6,757 nt of DNA from Tateyamaria sp. (lineage in GTDB: Bacteria; Pseudomonadota; Alphaproteobacteria; Rhodobacterales; Rhodobacteraceae), in the NCBI GenBank assembly GCA_018668195.1, contig JABITU010000361.1:1-6757 (forward strand), given 5' to 3'. Positions 2 to 6,757 of the stretch are shown one piece after another. Position 1 is the stretch's first letter, and each line of letters starts with the position of its first letter. A program made the translations under genes and the position numbers. Below the pieces are notes generated by a model. It was not told where the DNA came from. It searched no databases and was given only the letters and a program-made list of their open reading frames with translations.

Positions 2-76
2 GTCGCTGCCAACTATGGCTCAGGGTATGCGCTGGAGGGCATGCGGGAGCACATGGTGAAAGTCTGGGAGGAGTGA
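2..76 (+). CDS. C-terminal end of an unidentified protein (partial, 5' end outside window)
   Basis: Reading from base 2, 24 codons run to a TGA at 74-76. The peptide starts VAANYGSGYALEG and ends in MVKVWEE. The codons mostly end in G or C, and the peptide has a balanced, protein-like composition with a charged amphipathic tail, which is why I favour this frame. Frame 1 is also open, to about 195, but its peptide is rich in Gly, Cys and Trp and looks less natural. I do not recognise the family. The gene points toward the 3' end of the cyn operon, so it converges with it and is probably unrelated. A 24-residue fragment cannot settle identity, and a chance open frame is possible. Confidence 0.4.
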   Translation, partial: VAANYGSGYALEGMREHMVKVWEE

Positions 77-420: not shown

Positions 421-873
421 TTACCAGCTATTATATCCTAAATACTTGCCTGACATCTCAACTTTTACGCGGTCGCCCTTGAGGTTTTCTACGCGAGTCA
501 CGGTCATGTCAAAGTCGATGGCTGACATGATGCCATCGCCGAATTTTTCCTGGATCAGTGCCTTAAGTGTTGGTCCATAAACGCCGACGATTTCATAAAA
601 CCGATAGATGCAGGGATCAGTTGGCACGGCCTGCTCCCAAATCTTGGTAGGGCTCTCGGAGAGCGCACTTTCCGCCTCTTGGGGCAGGCCCATTACCTTG
701 ACCATCAGGGCTGCCTTATCAGGGGGAAACGCGTTCATGCCCATCGCAGCAGAATGCGTCCAAACTGGTGACATGCTAATCTTATCGGCAATCTCTTCCC
801 ATGTGATGCCTGTCGTTTTCTTGGCCGATAGTATCATGGCTGTGACGTCTTCTTTGGTCATCATCTCGGTCAT
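421..873 (-). CDS. cynS: Cyanate hydratase (cyanase)
   Basis: Cyanase converts cyanate and bicarbonate, through carbamate, to ammonia and CO2 in the cytoplasm. The protein has 150 residues, close to the 156 of the E. coli enzyme. An N-terminal helical region (about 1-75, with AKKTTGITWEEIADK) precedes the compact C-terminal catalytic domain. The E. coli catalytic set Arg96/Glu99/Ser122 matches Arg91, Glu94 and Ser117 here, with identical spacing, in the contexts YRFYE and IMSAIDF. The C-terminus GKYLGYNSW is family-like. Start: the first ATG at 873 has an AAAGGA ribosome site (883-888) 9 nt upstream; in-frame Met4 and Met5 are less well placed. It is the last gene of the cynABD-DUF1348-cynS run, 44 nt after the preceding stop. 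Its own ribosome site suggests independent translation. The family is decameric. Identification is very secure. Confidence 0.97.
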   Translation of the reverse strand: MTEMMTKEDVTAMILSAKKTTGITWEEIADKISMSPVWTHSAAMGMNAFPPDKAALMVKVMGLPQEAESALSESPTKIWEQAVPTDPCIYRFYEIVGVYGPTLKALIQEKFGDGIMSAIDFDMTVTRVENLKGDRVKVEMSGKYLGYNSW

Positions 874-917: not shown

Positions 918-1397
918 TTAGAGGCCCAGTTCGCTCAGGCTGGGATGATCTTGCGGGCGTGGTCCGGGTGCGGGCCAGTGGAACAATCGGTCCGCCTGTG
1001 CGATGGGCACATCGTTGATCGAGGCATGGCGCTGCGACATGTAACCATCCACGTCAAAAGCCCAATTTTCGTTGCCATGGGCGCGGTACCATTGGCCATC
1101 CGCGTCATGGTATTCATAGCAAAACCGCACCGCGATTTGCGCATCCCCATGAGCCCAGATTTCCTTGATTAAGCGGTATTCGTTTTCACCAAACCATTTG
1201 GCCACCAGAAAAGTTTCGACCTCAGTACGGCCATTTAAGAACTCCGAGCGGTTGTGCCACATTGTATCCGGCGTATAGGCCAACGCAACCTTTGCGGGAT
1301 CACGCCCATTCCATGCGTCCTCAGCCATACGTACCTTTTGTACAGCATCAGCAGTGCTGAACGGTGGCACCGGAAAGCGCGGCGGTGCCCCAATCAT
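918..1397 (-). CDS. DUF1348 / SnoaL-like (NTF2-fold) small protein of unknown function
   Basis: This is a 159-residue protein of the DUF1348 family, which adopts the NTF2/SnoaL-like cone fold. Recognisable family blocks are AEDAWNGRDP (25-34), a W-H/R-NR segment (MWHNRSEFLNGR, 46-57), KWFGENEYRLIKEIWAH (67-83), RFCYEYHDADGQWYR (91-105), GNENWAF (108-114), and ASINDVPI (125-132) with RLFHWPAPGPRPQDH (137-151). Full length is as expected for the family. No signal peptide or membrane segment is visible, so it should be cytoplasmic. Its ATG overlaps the cynD stop by 4 nt (ATGA), implying translational coupling; no strong ribosome site is seen. NTF2-fold proteins serve as small-molecule isomerases, dehydratases or binding proteins, but no activity can be assigned here. 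Its place between transporter and cyanase suggests a role tied to cyanate handling, which is inference. Confidence 0.9.
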   Translation of the reverse strand: MIGAPPRFPVPPFSTADAVQKVRMAEDAWNGRDPAKVALAYTPDTMWHNRSEFLNGRTEVETFLVAKWFGENEYRLIKEIWAHGDAQIAVRFCYEYHDADGQWYRAHGNENWAFDVDGYMSQRHASINDVPIAQADRLFHWPAPGPRPQDHPSLSELGL

Positions 1398-2290
1398 TTC
1401 GGGACTGCCCGCAAAAGAGGTTCTGCGTCGGCTGCGCCCTCGGTCTTGTCGATACGCACCGTTTCGGGGCGGTGTGTTTCATCTCCAACGCTCTCCCCCG
1501 CGAGCAGAACAGACCTTTCGCCAAGAAATTGCACGAGATGGTTGCGAATGGCGTAGTAGTTGGGGTGCTCGACGATTGTCGTACGGGTGCGCGGGCGCGG
1601 CAGCGTGATCTCGACGCTTTCGGCAACACGGGCATTTGGGCCATTGGTCATCAGCAAAATACGGTCAGCAAGCAAAATCGCCTCGTCAATATCATGGGTG
1701 ATCATGAACACAGTTTGGTCGGTACCACTCCAGACCTTGATCAACTCGTCTTGAATGGTGCCACGCGTGAGCGCATCAAGTGCGCCAAACGGCTCGTCCA
1801 AAAGCAACAGCTTCGGCTCATTGGCGAATGCCCGCGCGATGGACACCCGTTGACGCATCCCCCCCGACAGCTGGCTGGGTTTGCGATAGATAGCGTCTCC
1901 GGTTAGGCCGACCTTTTCCAAAAACGCGATTGAATGGTCTGTCACCTGCTGCTTGGTCCACTGCGGAAACCGCGCTGCCACGCCAAATGTCACGTTCTTG
2001 AGCGTGGTGAGCCACGGCAGCAGCGAATAGTTCTGAAATACCACGCCACGATCAAGACTGGGGCCAGAGATGGCCTGACCGTCCATCTTGATCACACCAC
2101 TGGTCGGATCAGAAAGACCCGCGAGGATATTCATGATCGTAGATTTACCGCAGCCTGAATGGCCAAGGATGCAAACGAACTCGCCTTTCTCGATGCCAAA
2201 GCTGGCGTTCTCAAAGACGGTGAATTCGCCCCCTTTGCCGTCTGGGTAGCGTTGTGTAAGCCGTTCAATGCTCAGGAATGAAGATGCCAT
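1394..2290 (-). CDS. cynD: ABC transporter ATP-binding protein, cyanate/nitrate type
   Basis: This is the energising subunit of the importer, of the NrtD/CmpD/TauB group, 298 residues. Motifs in order: Walker A GHSGCGKST (43-51), Q-loop FQNYSLLPW (Gln86), ABC signature LSGGMRQR (141-148), Walker B LLLLDEP (161-167) with the D-loop GALD, and the switch His in ITHD (His199). The PRPRTR segment (231-236) is typical of the nitrate/taurine ATPases. The C-terminal 30 or so residues (acidic, with ETHRPETVRID) extend past the usual end and look unstructured. Start: ATG at 2290 has AAGG seven bases upstream. It lies 9 nt after cynB and overlaps the next gene by 4 nt. Sequence alone cannot separate cyanate from nitrate or bicarbonate ATPases; the assignment rests on the linked cynS. 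Confidence 0.93.
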   Translation of the reverse strand: MASSFLSIERLTQRYPDGKGGEFTVFENASFGIEKGEFVCILGHSGCGKSTIMNILAGLSDPTSGVIKMDGQAISGPSLDRGVVFQNYSLLPWLTTLKNVTFGVAARFPQWTKQQVTDHSIAFLEKVGLTGDAIYRKPSQLSGGMRQRVSIARAFANEPKLLLLDEPFGALDALTRGTIQDELIKVWSGTDQTVFMITHDIDEAILLADRILLMTNGPNARVAESVEITLPRPRTRTTIVEHPNYYAIRNHLVQFLGERSVLLAGESVGDETHRPETVRIDKTEGAADAEPLLRAVPK

Positions 2291-2299
2291 GTGTCTGCC

Positions 2300-3133
2300 T
2301 TATTCGACGTATGCGACGCGTCGCTGGAGCAGGCCAAGCGCCGCGTCCAGCAACATGCCGACAACGCCGATCATGAGAATTGAAAAGATGACGGAGGTCA
2401 GGTCGAGGTTGTTCCACTCGTTCCATACGTAATAGCCAATACCAGTGCCCCCCACGAGCATCTCGGCGGCCACAATGACCAGCCACGCGATACCGATGGA
2501 GATGCGCATGCCCGTTACAATTGTTGGTGCTGCTGCGGGCAAGATCACGGTGAAGGCAGTTTTTAGCGGCCCCAACTCATGGGTGCGGGCCACGTTGACC
2601 CAATCTTCGCGAACGCCCGCCACACCAAAGGCTGTATTGATCAGCATTGGCCAGATCGAGCAGATGAAGATTACAAAGATCGCAGAAGCCTCAGAGTCCT
2701 GAATGACAAACAGGGCCAGTGGCATCCACGCCAGTGGCGAAATCGGGCGCAGCACCTGAATGAACGGGTTGAGCGCCTTGTGGGCAACCCGTGACATACC
2801 GATCAAAAAGCCCAAAGGAATCGCTATGAGGGCGGCCAACAGATAACCCACCAATACGCGGTAAATTGAATAGCCTATCTGGATACCAATGCCCTTGTCG
2901 TTGGGACCGGCATCATAGAAGGGGTTCGACAATTGCTCCCAAGCTTTCGCAATCACTTGACTGGGAGGCGGTACGCCTGCCTTTGGTTGACCGGTCCCTG
3001 TCAGACGCTCGTATTCAGTCAGGGCCTCGACGGTCTTTTGTGCGGGAATAGACATTTCCCACACAAACAGACCGACGAGAAGCAACAATACCGAAAGCAG
3101 TGCTGCTTTCTTGTTCTCCGACAGCGTTTCCAT
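2300..3133 (-). CDS. cynB: ABC transporter permease, cyanate/nitrate type
   Basis: This is an inner-membrane permease of the NrtB/CmpB/SsuC group, 277 residues. A first hydrophobic segment lies at about 10-27 and is followed by a polar periplasmic stretch (about 28-88, with GTGQPKAGVPPPSQV). Further membrane segments are at about 92-113, 136-170 (probably two), 208-228 and 247-268. The cytoplasmic EAA loop that contacts the ATPase is at about 181-203, around ARTHELGPLKTAF and VILPAAAP. The RPISPLAWMPLAL block (129-141) is characteristic of this group. Its ATG overlaps the cynA stop by one base (TGATG), so translation is probably coupled to cynA. It would work as a dimer with cynD beneath it and CynA delivering substrate. 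Confidence 0.93.
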   Translation of the reverse strand: METLSENKKAALLSVLLLLVGLFVWEMSIPAQKTVEALTEYERLTGTGQPKAGVPPPSQVIAKAWEQLSNPFYDAGPNDKGIGIQIGYSIYRVLVGYLLAALIAIPLGFLIGMSRVAHKALNPFIQVLRPISPLAWMPLALFVIQDSEASAIFVIFICSIWPMLINTAFGVAGVREDWVNVARTHELGPLKTAFTVILPAAAPTIVTGMRISIGIAWLVIVAAEMLVGGTGIGYYVWNEWNNLDLTSVIFSILMIGVVGMLLDAALGLLQRRVAYVE

Positions 3134-4506
3134 CAGTCGGCCTTGATCGCAAAGCTGTCGACATAGGCTTCGGGCTGCGCGGGATCAAACGACTTCCCCA
3201 TGATCATGTGCGACTTGTAGTTGTCCGCAGGCGCATCATAACCAAGGTCAGTCATAACCTTGCGGGCGTCTGCAGCCAGATAGACCTGTTCGGCCACTTT
3301 TTTGTAGTCCACATCCCCCTCGATATAACCCCAACGCTTCATCTGAGTCAGGATCCACACGCCCATGGATTGCCATGGGAAGGGGTCAAAATCGATCCGG
3401 TCGGGCACGCGCTGTACCTCGCCCAATCCATCCGCATAGGTCCCCGTCAGAACCTGCTCGATCACCGTGACTGGCTGATTGAGATAGTTCGTGGGCGCAA
3501 TCGCAGACGAGATTTCTTTGCGGTTGTCAGGGTTCGACGCGTATTGCGTGGCATCAATAATAGACTTGAGCAAAGCGCCGTAAGTATTCGGCAATTCGGT
3601 GGCGAAAGACAAAGGTGCCGCAAAAGCGCAACATGGATGACCCTCCCAAATTTCTTTGGTCAGGATGTGGATAAAGCCGATGCCCTCATAGACCGCACGC
3701 TGGTTGAACGGATCAGGAGACAGATAGCCGTCAAGGTTCCCGGCGCGCAGGTTGGCAACCATCTCTGGTGGGGGCACGACGCGGATCTGGATGTCGACAT
3801 CAGGGTCCAGACCAAATTCGGCGACGTAATAGCGCAGCAGGAAGTTGTGCATCGAATATTCGAACGGCACCCCAAAGGTGAAGCCTTTCCACTGCTTCGG
3901 ATCACGCTTGTCAAGGTGTTCGTTGGCCAAAACAATCGCCTGACCGTTGATGTTTTCAACGGCTGGCATGATATAGGGCTCTGCAATGGATCCCGCCCCC
4001 AAGGTCATTGCCAATGGCATCGGCGTCAGCATGTGGGAGGCGTCGTATTCACCCGACAGCGATTTATCACGGGCCACGGCCCATCCAGCGGTTTTGATCA
4101 CCTTAGCATTCAGACCGTAGCGGGAATAAAAGCCCAGCGGTTCTGCCATGATGATGGGTGTGGCGCAGGTGATCGGCACAAAGCCGATGTTCAGGTCAGT
4201 CTTTTCGGGCGTGCCGAGATTGTCGAGGATTGCAGCCTTGGCCGCGTCCAGTGGAAAGACAGAAGCCAGGGCGGCAGCAGCTGTTGTGCCACCAACCATC
4301 CCCATGAAGGACCGCCTACCAATGTCGCTGTGGCCAAAGACCGAGCGCACAATCGCGCTTTCAACAGCCTGCTCCAGCATGTCGTCACTGGACATATGCG
4401 CTGTTTGCGGCGTGGCGGTGGCTTGACACGTATCACACGAACAGCTTTGCCCGTGCCGCAGATCGGTGTCTTTCGAAAATGGATTTCCTAAGCTTTTCAC
4501 TGTCAT
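3133..4506 (-). CDS. cynA: Tat-exported cyanate-binding protein (NrtA/CmpA family)
   Basis: This is the periplasmic solute-binding subunit, 457 residues with the start chosen here. An unusually long leader (about 91 residues) contains a Cys cluster, SCSCDTC (Cys22, Cys24, Cys27, with His18). An acidic/amphipathic helix (about 40-58) precedes the twin-arginine motif GRRSFMG (Arg64, Arg65). The hydrophobic h-region follows (about 69-84), with a likely cut after AKA (89-91). The mature part shows the NrtA/CmpA pattern: LNIGFVPITCATPIIMAEPLG near 105-125, TAGWAVARD (139-147), GNLDGYLSPDPFNQRAV (256-272, matching the GEPWN region of NrtA) and WEGHPCCAF (287-295). The frame is open upstream to 4599, but ATG 4506 has GGGGA five bases ahead, while ATG 4518 and 4599 have no ribosome site. 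First gene of the operon. Nitrate or bicarbonate binding cannot be excluded from sequence, but linked cynS favours cyanate. Confidence 0.92.
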   Translation of the reverse strand: MTVKSLGNPFSKDTDLRHGQSCSCDTCQATATPQTAHMSSDDMLEQAVESAIVRSVFGHSDIGRRSFMGMVGGTTAAAALASVFPLDAAKAAILDNLGTPEKTDLNIGFVPITCATPIIMAEPLGFYSRYGLNAKVIKTAGWAVARDKSLSGEYDASHMLTPMPLAMTLGAGSIAEPYIMPAVENINGQAIVLANEHLDKRDPKQWKGFTFGVPFEYSMHNFLLRYYVAEFGLDPDVDIQIRVVPPPEMVANLRAGNLDGYLSPDPFNQRAVYEGIGFIHILTKEIWEGHPCCAFAAPLSFATELPNTYGALLKSIIDATQYASNPDNRKEISSAIAPTNYLNQPVTVIEQVLTGTYADGLGEVQRVPDRIDFDPFPWQSMGVWILTQMKRWGYIEGDVDYKKVAEQVYLAADARKVMTDLGYDAPADNYKSHMIMGKSFDPAQPEAYVDSFAIKAD

Positions 4507-4527: not shown

Positions 4528-4543
4528 TGGAATTATGTTGCCA
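4528..4543 (-). promoter_or_regulatory. Candidate sigma-54-like promoter of the cynABD operon (imperfect)
   Basis: On the minus strand the sequence reads TGGCAA, five bases, then TTCCA. Against the sigma-54 consensus TGGCAC-N5-TTGCA it matches 9 of 11 defined positions with correct spacing. One mismatch is the normally near-invariant G of the GC in the -12 box (CC here). If real, transcription would start near 4517, leaving a leader of about 11 nt that still contains the cynA ribosome site. The palindrome at 4645-4664 would then be centred about 137 bp upstream of the start, a usual distance for an enhancer-type site. The missing G makes this a tentative call. Confidence 0.35.
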
Positions 4544-4631
4544 TGGATTGTGCAGGTGCAGAAAGTGGGTTTGCGAGGTGATTGAAAAACGCAATTCATT
4601 GAAATAAATGATTAAATATTTGGCAGATGAT

Positions 4632-4643
4632 ACGAATTTTCGT
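4632..4643. repeat. Small dyad beside the main palindrome (5+5 bp)
   Basis: ACGAA at 4632-4636 pairs with TTCGT at 4639-4643 around two bases. The half-site resembles that of the adjacent larger palindrome (ACGAT), and the two centres are 17 bp apart. It may be a weaker second binding site for the same regulator. Short dyads in AT-rich DNA also occur by chance. Confidence 0.4.
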
Positions 4644-4644
4644 G

Positions 4645-4664
4645 AATTACGATAGATCGTAATT
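4645..4664. promoter_or_regulatory. Perfect 9+9 bp palindrome, probable operator in the cynA/cynF divergent region
   Basis: The sequence AATTACGAT-AG-ATCGTAATT is a perfect inverted repeat with a 2-bp centre. It lies about 139 bp upstream of the cynA start codon and 29 bp upstream of the first cynF start codon. Fis-type C-terminal domains bind such dyads as dimers, so the natural candidate ligand is the adjacent regulator. In this position it could serve as an upstream activating site for cynABDS while overlapping the cynF promoter or leader, allowing autoregulation. Ownership by CynF is inference. Confidence 0.6.
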
Positions 4665-4693: not shown

Positions 4694-6568
4694 GTGAAGA
4701 TGAAGGACGATTCTCATTCACCGGTTGCGACTTCGCATAATCCGCTGCCCGCTATTATCGTGGGGACCCGAACTGGCGCGATTATGTCATGCAATCAAGA
4801 TGCGGTGACCCTGTTCAAAACCGATCTTATCGGCATAGAGGTCGGCAGGTTTCTCACCTCGCCCTCGGGTTCAATAGCTGTGTTTCTGGAAGCGGTGATG
4901 CACTTTGGGCGCTACATCGACACAGCATTAGAATTTGCGTGCTCTGATGGTATGCCGCTTCGGGTGCACATCTACGGGACCCATGTAGGGACGTCAGATG
5001 TGATGCTCAGCTTTCTGGACCTGAACGCACAAAATAGACGTGAATATCTGGCCGAACAAGACGCCCACCAGCGCGCAGGACTGATGCAATGGCAAAACAT
5101 CTACGGATTTTTTCGCGAGGTTGAGGCGCAAAACCAGCTGATCCTTGAGGCCGCAGGCGAAGGCATCTACGGGATCAATGCAGAGGGCAAAGCCACCTTC
5201 GTCAACCGCGCCGCCCAAGAGATGCTGGGCTGGAACGCCGAAGATCTGATTGGGCGCGAGTTGCATTCCATCATCCACCATCACCATCTGGACGGCGGCC
5301 AGTTCCCTGCTCATGAGTGCCCAATCTACGATTCATTCCGGCGCGACAAAACCGTGCGCGTGGAAGATGACGCCTTTTGGCGCAAAGACGGCAAGCCCAT
5401 TTTGGTTGAATATGTCTCTACACCAATCTATGATCACGGCGTCTTGGCGGGGGCGGTTGTTATCTTTCGCGATGTGACCGAGCGCAAAGAAAACGAAAAA
5501 AAGCTGCGCCATGCCTTGGCAGAGGTCGAAACCCTGCAGGTTCAACTGGAACAGGAAAACGACTACCTGTTGACCGAGATCCGAAACGTCCAATCCCATG
5601 CTGGTATCATCGGGCAATCTGCTGCTGTGCGGAACCTGAACATACAGATTGATCTGGTGGCCGATACCAAAACGAATGTCTTGATCACAGGGGCCGCGGG
5701 CACTGGAAAAAGCCTTGCGGTGAGCGCAATCCACGAAGCCAGCAGCGGGCGCAAACGGCCCTTGGTGCAAGTCAATTGTTCCGACACCACCAGCCAAGCG
5801 CTTGAGGCCGAGATATTTGGCTATCGGCGCGGCGCATTTCGCGGCGCTGTGCGCGATACCGTCGGCAAATTGGCATTGGCAAACAATGGCACCTTGTGTC
5901 TGGACGACGTGTCAGAGCTGCCCAAAGCCTTTCAGGCGAAACTGATCGCAGTCATCAAAGAGGGCCATTTCAAACGATTGGGGGATGACATTCATACCCG
6001 TGTTGACCTGAGGATCATCTCGACCACCACCCGCAACCTTGCGGCTGAGGTGCAGGCAGGGCGTTTCCGCCAGGATTTATTCTTCGAGTTGAACGTTTTT
6101 GCCATCAATTGTGATGGCCTCAAAGACCGGCCTGACGACATTCCCCTTTTGGCCAAACACTTTCTGGATCGCGCTTCGCGCAGGTTGCGCCTTCCACCAG
6201 CACGTCTTTCAAAGGCCAATATTGAAGCGCTCTCGCAGTATGACTGGCCGGGGAATGTGCGCGAATTGGAGAACGTGATTGAGCGTGCCGCGATTCTAGC
6301 ACAGGGTCGTAAGCTGCAGTTTGAGTTCCAATCAGGCCCTGCACAATCAGTCGATCTGGAAGCTCAAATTCTTTCCACGTCTGATCTAAAGCGCTTAGAA
6401 CGTGAGAACCTGATCCGGTGTTTGATACGGTCCCACGGGCGCGTCTCTGGTCCATCCGGTGCAGCACGCCTTTTGGAGCTGGCTCCCACCACTGTTTATT
6501 CCAAGATTACGGCCTTGGCCGTTACTGAGGCTGATTGGAAGCTGGAAGGTGCTAAGGCCGATCAGTAG
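4694..6568 (+). CDS. cynF: CynF-type regulator: PAS-PAS-AAA+-Fis, NtrC/FhlA class, with altered sigma-54 motifs
   Basis: A 624-residue cytoplasmic transcription regulator, divergent from cynABDS. An N-terminal divergent PAS-like domain spans about 18-112. A clear second PAS (about 145-265) contains LEAAGEGIYGINAEG, GWNAEDLIGREL, a His-rich HHHH (195-198) with Cys209 in ECPIY, and ends in IFRDVTERK. A coiled-coil linker follows (about 267-300), then the AAA+ domain (305-535) with Walker A GAAGTGKS (333-340), GAFRGA in place of GAFTGA (380-385), Walker B LCLDD (401-405), and FRQDLFFELNVF (458-469), where the second arginine-finger position is Glu465. WPGNVREL (518-525) is normal. A Fis-type helix-turn-helix lies at about 568-608 (VSGPSGAARLL, TTVYSK). 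Start GTG 4694 or ATG 4700; neither has a good ribosome site, and an in-frame stop lies at 4643. P. pseudoalcaligenes cynF, described as a sigma-54-dependent regulator of cynABDS, is the model for the symbol. Several core residues are off, so true sigma-54 activation is doubtful. Confidence 0.88.
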   Translation: MKMKDDSHSPVATSHNPLPAIIVGTRTGAIMSCNQDAVTLFKTDLIGIEVGRFLTSPSGSIAVFLEAVMHFGRYIDTALEFACSDGMPLRVHIYGTHVGTSDVMLSFLDLNAQNRREYLAEQDAHQRAGLMQWQNIYGFFREVEAQNQLILEAAGEGIYGINAEGKATFVNRAAQEMLGWNAEDLIGRELHSIIHHHHLDGGQFPAHECPIYDSFRRDKTVRVEDDAFWRKDGKPILVEYVSTPIYDHGVLAGAVVIFRDVTERKENEKKLRHALAEVETLQVQLEQENDYLLTEIRNVQSHAGIIGQSAAVRNLNIQIDLVADTKTNVLITGAAGTGKSLAVSAIHEASSGRKRPLVQVNCSDTTSQALEAEIFGYRRGAFRGAVRDTVGKLALANNGTLCLDDVSELPKAFQAKLIAVIKEGHFKRLGDDIHTRVDLRIISTTTRNLAAEVQAGRFRQDLFFELNVFAINCDGLKDRPDDIPLLAKHFLDRASRRLRLPPARLSKANIEALSQYDWPGNVRELENVIERAAILAQGRKLQFEFQSGPAQSVDLEAQILSTSDLKRLERENLIRCLIRSHGRVSGPSGAARLLELAPTTVYSKITALAVTEADWKLEGAKADQ

Positions 6569-6757
6569 AGTAAATGTCTGATATACAGGTTTGCATTTGT
6601 TGGAGGAGGAAAAGCGGCCGTTAAAGCAGATGCCGCGTAGGGCGACTTTGTCCGCAGAGTAGACATCTGGACAGAGTGTAGCAAAGGGCTGCTTCCCACC
6701 GTTTCCACCTCGGGCGGAGTGGCAGCTAGGTTCAGGACTCATAACCAGAATATGACG
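6569..6757. other. Non-coding right flank after cynF
   Basis: I see no convincing gene and no clear terminator. A weak GCGGC/GCCGC pairing (6614-6618 with 6632-6636, 13-nt loop) has no T-run. The last bases (TTCAGGACTCATAACC and onward) resemble, from memory only, sequence found at the ends of some Roseobacter-group insertion sequences; no transposase is within the window to support this. Confidence 0.4.

Follow-up and report, generated by a model that had tools for sequence, protein, structure and literature searches.

How does an enhancer-type regulator serve its operon when the motor residues that characterize its class have been replaced? The question is raised by CynF, which presumably serves cynABDS, the divergent cyanate operon, as its dedicated activator, in the window analysed here (the whole stretch of 6,757 nucleotides), where the following genes and domain are found:

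421..873, minus strand: cynS, cyanase
918..1397, minus strand: DUF1348 / SnoaL-like protein gene
1394..2290, minus strand: cynD, ABC ATPase
2300..3133, minus strand: cynB, ABC permease
3133..4506, minus strand: cynA, substrate-binding protein, with a likely start at ATG-4506, residue 32 of an ORF opening at 4599
4700..6568, plus strand: cynF, regulator of PAS - AAA+ (PF00158-type) - HTH build, 622 aa from ATG, 624 from GTG-4694
5132..5482, plus strand: PAS sensor domain of CynF (Pfam match), residues 147-263

The ORF at 4694-6568 (plus strand) is uninterrupted, and Pfam recognizes Sigma54_activat (PF00158; residues 305-471, E 4e-53), AAA_lid_14 and PAS in its product, in agreement with the intact frame and sigma-54 activator build given in a preliminary description of this DNA. 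The same description called the DNA-binding domain canonical, a term which does not hold, there being no Pfam match to HTH_8 at E<=1e-3; the C-terminus is presumably FhlA-like. A receiver domain, as expected of NtrC, is absent from the Pfam matches and a PAS domain is present instead. CynF probably begins at ATG-4700, because the alignment with most close relatives starts at residue 3 and a 100% identical homologue (P0002) measures 622 aa. Residue numbers here count GTG-4694 as codon 1; on that count the earlier numbering places each residue correctly, although the numbers are probably 2 too high and fall by 2 from the ATG.

As a PAS-AAA+ protein encoded divergently from cynABDS, the regulator corresponds to CynF of Pseudomonas pseudoalcaligenes CECT5344 (cynFABDS), which is described as a Fis-type putative sigma-54 regulator, likewise divergent from cynABDS (PMC6627978). 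At 45 of 47 loci cynF has a divergently oriented cyn gene as its neighbour, the remaining two being nitrilase-cluster loci, and the DUF1348 / SnoaL-like gene recurs in 7 of 10 long cyn loci (L001-L006, L083-L086). CynF is an accessory gene, since it is present at E<=1e-140 in 18/295, 13/121, 15/148 and 6/101 genomes of overlapping samples. The window's CynF is a form occurring in the Rhodobacterales, as seen from named records and from the genome family of Planktotalea frisia, which carries a 99.7% identical cluster.

The AAA+ motor contains the following sites, given with their conservation among 39 altered CynFs:

5690..5713, plus strand: Walker A GAAGTGKS, residues 333-340; Lys339 kept in 39/39
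5831..5848, plus strand: GAFRGA (380-385) in the L1 loop, Thr replaced by Arg383
5903..5908, plus strand: Walker B Asp404-Asp405, usually Asp-Glu
6020..6031, plus strand: STTT at sensor I (443-446) in place of the usual AATN; 3/39 keep Asn446
6068..6070, plus strand: Arg459, first arginine finger, kept in 39/39
6086..6088, plus strand: Glu465, where the second arginine finger would be; 39/39 have A, E, M, T, H, F or Y here
6260..6262, plus strand: Arg523, sensor II arginine, kept in 38/39

Alignment to the solved ZraR, NifA and FlrC, which have GAFTGA and the second arginine at the aligned places and AATH, AATN and ATSN at sensor I, puts GAFRGA, DD, STTT, Glu465 and Arg459 where they had originally been located (ISTTT, residues 442-446, at 6017-6031; RFRQDLFFE, 457-465, at 6062-6088). 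We take Arg459 to be the equivalent of PspF Arg162 and Glu465 to occupy the place of PspF Arg168. Among the marks of sigma-54-dependent bEBPs, the L1 Thr/Ser, second Arg finger, sensor I Asn and Walker B DE are missing and the first finger is kept; an L1 motif lost with the nucleotide pocket retained is the state of GAFTGA-less bEBPs that act with sigma-70. A further coupled change is the Ser after the P-loop Lys, a position held by Glu in 120/120 Bosea-type proteins (best 120 of 8000 listed). The regulator of the two nitrilase loci (L087, L088), on Acinetobacter plasmids, is of the same type, 36-40% identical and adjacent to nitrogen-starvation nitrilase genes, a cluster that we take to be Nit1C-type; it differs from the window's CynF in retaining GAFTGA, AATN and the full pair of Arg fingers.

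Thr/Ser383, Asn446 and Arg465 are jointly present in none of 99 close homologues (P0002-P0100) and in one of 21 proteins of a 47-52% identity group (P0104, 49%), these being the best 120 of 1615 homologues of the window's CynF; the corresponding figure is 119 of 120 for Bosea-CynF relatives (best 120 of 8000). A strain-specific mutation, which the preliminary description would have read from close orthologues with GAFTGA and normal fingers, is rejected on the count of 0/99: loss is clade-wide. Within the best 120 of 1615, Arg459 is kept in 97/99 close homologues, and Walker B reads DE in 90/99 and DD in 3/99 of these and DD in 14/21 of the 47-52% group. Hence the DD, formerly counted as one of four joint changes, is indeed present in the window yet is, on this comparison, a local variant and not a trait of close relatives. 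The 39 altered CynFs form one clade in a tree with support of 100/100 (a protein set without L002, which nearly equals L001, and with L048; loci repeating one genome's cynF, e.g. L010, L011, L014, L018-L020, L040, L065, L076 and L082, were counted once). The second Arg finger is absent in all 39 and the sensor I Asn in 36. Hosts of altered CynFs are mostly marine bacteria.

So many lost catalytic residues might signify that cynF is decaying and regulates nothing, and, measured against PAS, the AAA+ domain is also less well conserved than in the Bosea type, being the more conserved of the two in 3/1500 pairs of the altered clade versus 1299/1500. We find this scarcely credible, given that the frames of 47/47 translated loci stay open as far as the sensor II motif or beyond, operators are conserved and the neighbourhood is kept. 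Whole-gene dN/dS of cynF is 0.04-0.07 in 5/7 pairs, on which a pseudogene was rejected, and AAA+ dN/dS is 0.03-0.05 in the 5/7 pairs where it is computable (some domain values are uncomputable in 3/7 pairs, including the window's own pair L001/L062, for AAA+ and whole gene). These values indicate that cynF is under purifying selection, and the original view that this is not simple gene decay stands. Several cynF matches report one stop, necessarily after the sensor II motif. In a separate reading of loci, L022 and L035 yielded no frame that could be used, L007 and L013 yielded an identical one, and the R-finger assignments were crude. PAS is the most conserved part of CynF in the window's clade, with 85% mean identity.

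The promoter has changed with the regulator. A -24/-12 sigma-54 promoter before cynA is present at >=10/12 in 5/5 intact-motor loci, and in 0/39 altered loci in a scan of the cynF-cynA gap (best 9/12 or fewer), so that a hidden sigma-54 promoter in the gap was rejected. Gaps of 24/39 altered loci lack a GG-N10-GC core of any kind, and the core is absent from the gaps of L001 and L002, which match the window's. The gap set includes L002 and omits L048, for want of a cynA alignment there; a cyn gap is absent from L087 and L088. Compared by description, CECT5344 cynA has a putative sigma-54 promoter (PMC6627978), whereas the window has no -24/-12 element and has lost the motor residues. We found rpoN in 3/3 intact-CynF genomes and 11/38 altered-CynF genomes; it was not found in 27/38, which may be incomplete and some of which are small (2.2-2.8 Mb). 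On the tree, motif loss and rpoN loss give only three independent pairs, a comparison without power.

In the rpoN-positive hosts CynF might still use sigma-54 through a modified L1 loop, being silent or acting otherwise elsewhere. One such host, HTCC2083, has a practically identical CynF. We nevertheless consider continued use of sigma-54 improbable. No rpoN-positive altered locus has a -24/-12 promoter at >=10/12, the second finger is gone from all 39 altered CynFs and the sensor I Asn from 36, rpoN was not found in the P. frisia genome in spite of its near-identical cluster, and Thr changes other than S, E or putatively D are classed as inactive (Francke et al., PMC3162934). Clade-wide motor loss, the lost -24/-12 element before cynA and the failure to detect rpoN in most hosts support the earlier suggestion that this regulator may act without sigma-54. 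Against a CynF free of sigma-54 stand the 11/38 hosts with rpoN, G080, which retains GAFTGA, two others with GAFSGA, and P0104 with all three residues; in Caulobacter, moreover, NtrC mutants lacking GAFTGA are able to increase sigma-54-dependent transcripts of flagellar genes (PMC12421884).

The gap contains two palindromes:

4649..4660, no strand assigned: candidate operator palindrome 1, ACGATAGATCGT; cynF starts about 43 nt away
4632..4643, no strand assigned: candidate operator palindrome 2, ACGAATTTTCGT, its centre 17 bp from that of palindrome 1

The pair occurs at <=2 mismatches in 43/44 loci, with both motor types, and each beats 200 shuffles; from position and conservation we infer that CynF binds both palindromes. 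The palindromes and the promoter described below could instead belong to another regulator, with CynF acting elsewhere or indirectly. This seems very unlikely: in a search for exact sites only, the pair occurred once, beside cynF, in 4/6 genomes (in G001 and G002 within the cynF-cynA gap) and had no exact match in the other two, and it is common to CynF loci of either promoter type.

Between the palindromes and cynA, we predict a sigma-70-type promoter:

4600..4616, minus strand: conserved AT-rich box, TTAATCA..TTCA when read towards cynA, situated between operator and promoter and weakly IHF-like; TCA in 18/18
4558..4564, minus strand: -35 region of the predicted cynA promoter; C in 15, T in 17 and T in 14 of 18 (operator-anchored columns)
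4535..4543, minus strand: extended -10 TGgCAACAT of the predicted sigma-70-type cynA promoter; TG at -15/-14, A-11, T-7; predicted +1 at 4528

The motif TGnnAnnnT lies near the cynA start in 17/18 loci of the window's subclade (2.8 expected; 3/18 in a control stretch). Since alignment on this motif makes TG, A-11 and T-7 conserved by construction, columns anchored on the operator alone were used instead, giving, across the 18 loci, T-35 in 17, TG in 17 and 17, A-11 in 17 and T-7 in 16. The distance from operator centre to predicted +1 is 109 bp in 17/18 loci and 108 in one (L064 placed by hand). In cross-validation of the promoter profile, 13/18 best matches fell at 108-110 and 5/18 elsewhere, and only 5/18 were beaten by at most 1/100 shuffles. 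In the second subclade the profile beats all 100 shuffles in 7/20 loci, all 7 at 119-121, and TGnnAnnnT occurs in 6/17 (2.2 expected); L051, L054 and L081, in which the cynA match runs from residue 75, are outside the 17 and inside the 20. The spacing in those 7 is about one helical turn longer than 109 bp; in L052, also of this subclade, a match elsewhere is nearly as good (1/100 shuffles). A plain sigma-70 consensus scan found no promoter, and the predicted one is weak and far from consensus. At <=1 mismatch an IHF-like site occurs in 39% of the 18 loci against 11% expected, in 40% of the 20 against 14%, and in 4/5 intact loci against 3%; no IHF site is claimed for the AT-rich box. In the window's subclade the sequence predicts binding sites some 100 bp ahead of a promoter of sigma-70 type. 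For NtrC the distance is about 100 bp.

The preliminary description left the choice between a repressor and a sigma-70 activator. Because the operator centres lie about 109 and 126 bp ahead of the predicted cynA start, promoter geometry favours the second over repression of cynA. A CynF that acted as a repressor on the palindromes, relieved by cyanate or nucleotide and retaining its AAA+ domain only as an oligomerisation or ligand-binding module, would accommodate the loss of motor residues; with operators so close to the cynF start, self-repression is plausible, and some sigma-70 promoters are repressed by Caulobacter NtrC (PMC10274813). As an account of cynA, however, repression is unlikely, for besides being distant the operators keep their spacing to within 1 bp across 18 loci, and the shift of about one helical turn in the seven significant sister-subclade loci fits activation or looping and not occlusion; moreover, the weak -35 is of the kind found where a promoter depends on an activator, and CynF is reported as essential for cynABDS expression in P. 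pseudoalcaligenes (PMC6627978).

TyrR, DhaR, HupR and VpsR belong to other families and respond to other signals than CynF. Like the activator proposed here, they are bEBP relatives without sigma-54 interaction (PMC3162934; VpsR also PDB 7v2b). The best reading is that CynF resembles NtrC of Rhodobacter capsulatus, in another regulator family. That protein, from the same order, is a GAFTGA-less bEBP working with the housekeeping sigma factor, for which ATP binding rather than hydrolysis is reported as required (PMC10274813, PMC6925177); it has a receiver domain and an L1 deletion, whereas the window's CynF is PAS-headed, carries substitutions and has extant sigma-54-type orthologues. Caulobacter NtrC has also lost GAFTGA and is active at sigma-70 promoters, but differs in an 8-residue L1 deletion, in a reported need for both ATP binding and hydrolysis residues and in being a global regulator (PMC10274813, PMC12421884). 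Francke et al. (2011, PMC3162934) note about 110 GAFTGA-deviating homologues, among which Pro is preferred, and a case from Jannaschia in which rpoN is lacking. Cyanate lyase is given among sigma-54-regulated functions, enriched in alpha- and gammaproteobacteria (PMC12316311), an entry that fits the intact CynF type. The cyn regulon is absent from the excerpts of PMC5343134, and the literature matches listed, in which subscription journals were mostly outside scope, include no recognisable paper on a sigma-54-independent CynF.

We consider it probable that enhancer-type CynF now works on housekeeping RNA polymerase, regulator and promoter having left sigma-54 together. In the clade ancestor both would have abandoned it: the -24/-12 promoter would have given way to the weak extended -10 promoter now predicted to be in use, and the AAA+ motor, through loss of the L1 Thr, the sensor I Asn, the second Arg finger and often the switch Asn, would have lost the coupling of ATP hydrolysis to sigma-54 remodelling. 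The nucleotide pocket would have been preserved, ATP presumably being bound and no longer needed for a motor, and the operator pair would have remained some 90-120 bp ahead of the start. PAS may sense cyanate or a related signal, upon which CynF, probably as a nucleotide-bound oligomer, would occupy the two palindromes, situated near -109 and -126, and recruit or stabilise housekeeping polymerase across an AT-rich, possibly bent, spacer, with no sigma-54 remodelling. The fuller proposal, to which we give somewhat better than even chances, is that a sigma-54 switch was rebuilt in place as an enhancer-dependent sigma-70 switch, its operator kept, its promoter exchanged, its ATPase retired to a nucleotide-bound scaffold and its distance locked to helical phase (109 / about 119 bp).

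Polymerase carrying sigma-54 depends on such activators, and the exit of a regulator from sigma-54 without broken regulation is rarely visible. Here both states are found in orthologues of one gene, with the same operon and the same operators, such that the path can be reconstructed and tested stepwise. Many named clade members are annotated as 'sigma 54-interacting' or 'sigma-54 interaction domain' regulators, labels that would mislead on mechanism. If the reading is true, CynF would be one more family, alongside NtrC, with an AAA+ activator driving the housekeeping polymerase from about 100 bp, its fixed 109/119 bp spacing would offer a sharp and cheap handle on how sigma-70 polymerase is contacted at a distance by an AAA+ scaffold, and the CynF switch would be portable between rpoN-positive and rpoN-less hosts.

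The regulator gene cynF diverges from the cyn cluster of the window in the following arrangement.

3133-4506, minus strand: cynA
rest of the minus-strand cluster: cynB, cynD, a DUF1348 gene and cynS
4700-6568, plus strand: cynF (regulator), divergent from the cyn cluster

ATG-4700 is the likely start of cynF because the alignments of most close relatives begin at residue 3. The preliminary description listed four departures from a sigma-54 activator, and all of them are correct at the coordinates given there, with PDB alignments for comparison: GAFRGA (Arg383), DD in Walker B (404-405), STTT at sensor I (Thr446) and Glu465. Homologues were counted among the best 120 of 1615 and of 8000 matches, comprising 99 close homologues (P0002-P0100), 21 proteins at 47-52% identity and 120 relatives of the intact Bosea orthologue. 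A strain-specific mutation is excluded, Thr/Ser383, Asn446 and Arg465 occurring jointly in 0/99 close homologues; the combination is found in 1/21 of the 47-52% group (P0104), where GAFTGA occurs in three, and in 119/120 Bosea relatives. Among the close homologues, position 383 is Arg in 53, Pro in 28, Ala in 10, Ser in 3, Val in 3 and His in 2, and position 465 is Ala in 57, Glu in 33, Thr in 7 and Met in 2. The DD, although present as described, is not a trait that close homologues share; it is a local feature, since Walker B reads DE in 90/99 and DD in 3/99, and it is common (14/21) in the 47-52% group. A fifth coupled change is the Ser that follows the P-loop lysine in the window's CynF, a position occupied by Glu in 120/120 Bosea-type proteins.

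In a tree of 46 CynF-type proteins, computed with the motif columns removed, the 39 altered proteins form one clade (support 100/100), outside which lie the fully intact orthologues of Bosea, Methylobacterium and genomes G344, G349 and G358, and likewise the regulators of Acinetobacter nitrilase clusters. Parsimony requires at least three changes of L1 state, with Ser scored as intact. One genome inside the altered clade, G080, keeps GAFTGA, yet its second Arg finger, sensor I Asn and -24/-12 promoter are gone, which suggests that the promoter and the residues for hydrolysis were lost first and the L1 Thr later.

Decay of the regulator is a highly improbable explanation of such losses: dN/dS, computable for five of seven pairs, is 0.04-0.07 over the whole gene and 0.03-0.05 over the AAA+ domain, and altered CynFs retain Lys339 (39/39), Arg459 (39/39) and Arg523 (38/39); by these sequence measures altered cynF is still under selection. 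Mean identity in the window's clade is 85% for PAS and 66% for AAA+, against 77% and 83% in the Bosea type, and AAA+ identity exceeds that of PAS in 3/1500 sampled pairs of the former, 1299/1500 of the latter and 2/210 pairs of the 47-52% group. This shift in constraint would be expected if the motor were unused as a motor and sensing unchanged. Conservation of the PAS domain (5132-5482) is unusually high: His195, His196, Cys209 and Pro210 never vary across 31 aligned sequences, and the domain may bind a ligand or cofactor.

In all five intact loci the cynF-cynA gap contains a -24/-12 element that matches the consensus at 10-11 of 12 positions. Residual use of sigma-54 at altered loci is an improbable rival reading: the GG-N10-GC core is absent from 24/39 of their gaps, the remaining 15 score only 5-9 of 12, and the highest score (9, L051) is equalled by 8/100 shuffles. 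In the window's subclade (18 loci, omitting that of HTCC2083), TGnnAnnnT stands shortly before cynA in 17/18, compared with 2.8 predicted by shuffles and 3/18 in a control stretch. Columns anchored on the operator only, disregarding the promoter, are conserved at C-36 (15/18), T-35 (17), T-34 (14), T-15 (17), G-14 (17), A-11 (17) and T-7 (16), around a mostly variable 17-bp spacer. The predicted layout is of the extended -10 sigma-70 type, poor at -35, and is too distant from consensus for a plain sigma-70 scan, which did not detect it. When two parts of the subclade were cross-validated against each other, the top match lay 108-110 from the operator in 13/18 loci, with only 5/18 equalled by at most 1/100 shuffles. 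Applied to the second altered subclade, the profile exceeded all 100 shuffles in 7/20 loci, at three places on the tree, with predicted starts at 119-121, about one helical turn beyond the 109 of the window's subclade; 12 others gave no significant match, and L052, with its best match at 66 (equalled by 1/100 shuffles), counts against this pattern. No intact locus exceeded all shuffles, the best match in Methylobacterium, non-significant, happening to lie at 123.

With at most two mismatches, the gap of 43/44 altered and intact loci contains a pair of palindromes, ACGAnnnnTCGT, whose centres are 17 bp apart, a result unequalled in 200 shuffles; the sole exception, G344, has four mismatches. 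From its sequence, this putative enhancer is retained across altered and intact loci. That CynF represses from these sites, or that another regulator owns them, are rival readings of low probability. The exact pair occurs once per genome, in the cynF-cynA gap, in four genomes, and an exact-match search found none in two others. The second palindrome lies 109 bp from the predicted start in 17/18 loci of the window's subclade and 108 bp in one (in L064, which lacks the full TGnnAnnnT, the start was placed by hand), and 90-103 bp from the expected sigma-54 start in five intact loci. Between operator and promoter an AT-rich box (4600-4616) carries TCA in 18/18, its resemblance to an IHF site being weak.

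rpoN was found in 14/41 regulator-bearing genomes, comprising 3/3 with intact and 11/38 with altered CynF; G005 and G285, under the TIGR02395 cut-off, were scored positive on a near-full model match and passing PF04552. In a 295-genome family sample, 92 have rpoN above the PF04552 cut-off. Single absences are soft, genome completeness not being given, but the pattern across 27 genomes is not. No GAFTGA was found among readable PF00158 loci of four rpoN-less genomes (G001, G003, G004, G006), and rpoN-positive G005 has one PF00158 protein with GAFTDA. In rpoN-positive HTCC2083, two PF00158 loci are found some 20 kb away from rpoN (G002 C5:379-401 kb), and one or both encode a GAFTGA protein, as if rpoN had arrived together with its own local regulon. 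Another PF00158 protein (L008), in the genome of L004 where no rpoN was detected, reads GAFPGA with a normal YRLN second finger, perhaps a separate loss.

The window is 99.85% identical to HTCC2083 across 6554 bases and 99.74% to Planktotalea frisia SH6-1 across 6504. Between those two strains the cyn cluster is 99.7% identical and two other loci only 79% and 81%, so the cluster seems to have been transferred recently between, or into, hosts with and without rpoN, and presumably has to function in both. In HTCC2083 it is flanked by two near-identical genes, 13.9 kb apart, which we take to be tyrosine-recombinase-like (L002 2044-3383 and 16133-17283), and window 2-76 is the C-terminal end of a similar gene; with the identity between hosts that differ by about 20% at the two other loci, these flanks make the cluster look like a recently moved island. 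An element presumed to be IS5-like (L002 9858-10629) abuts the cynF 3' end in HTCC2083, substituting the last few codons to give a 646-aa frame, and the window (6551-6757) retains about 170 extra bases before the same element.

We propose that the PAS domain of CynF would detect a cyanate-related signal and that CynF, occupying the two palindromes at about -109/-126 and binding nucleotide with little or no hydrolysis, would from there activate the housekeeping polymerase. This scheme is modelled on NtrC of R. capsulatus, which works with RpoD (PMC6925177) and is reported to depend on binding of ATP rather than on its hydrolysis (PMC10274813). A related PAS-AAA+ regulator adjoins a nitrilase cluster on Acinetobacter plasmids (L087 906-8872), and in Loktanella salsilacus cynF lies between the cyn operon and a nitrilase cluster (L084 3128-14474); given these arrangements, one regulator might serve both clusters. 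CynF is not a first case of sigma-54 loss, which is already known in bEBPs (PMC3162934). As far as literature searches show, subscription journals lying mostly outside them, what is new is that CynF provides such a case, and that motor and promoter were exchanged as a pair around an enhancer that was kept.
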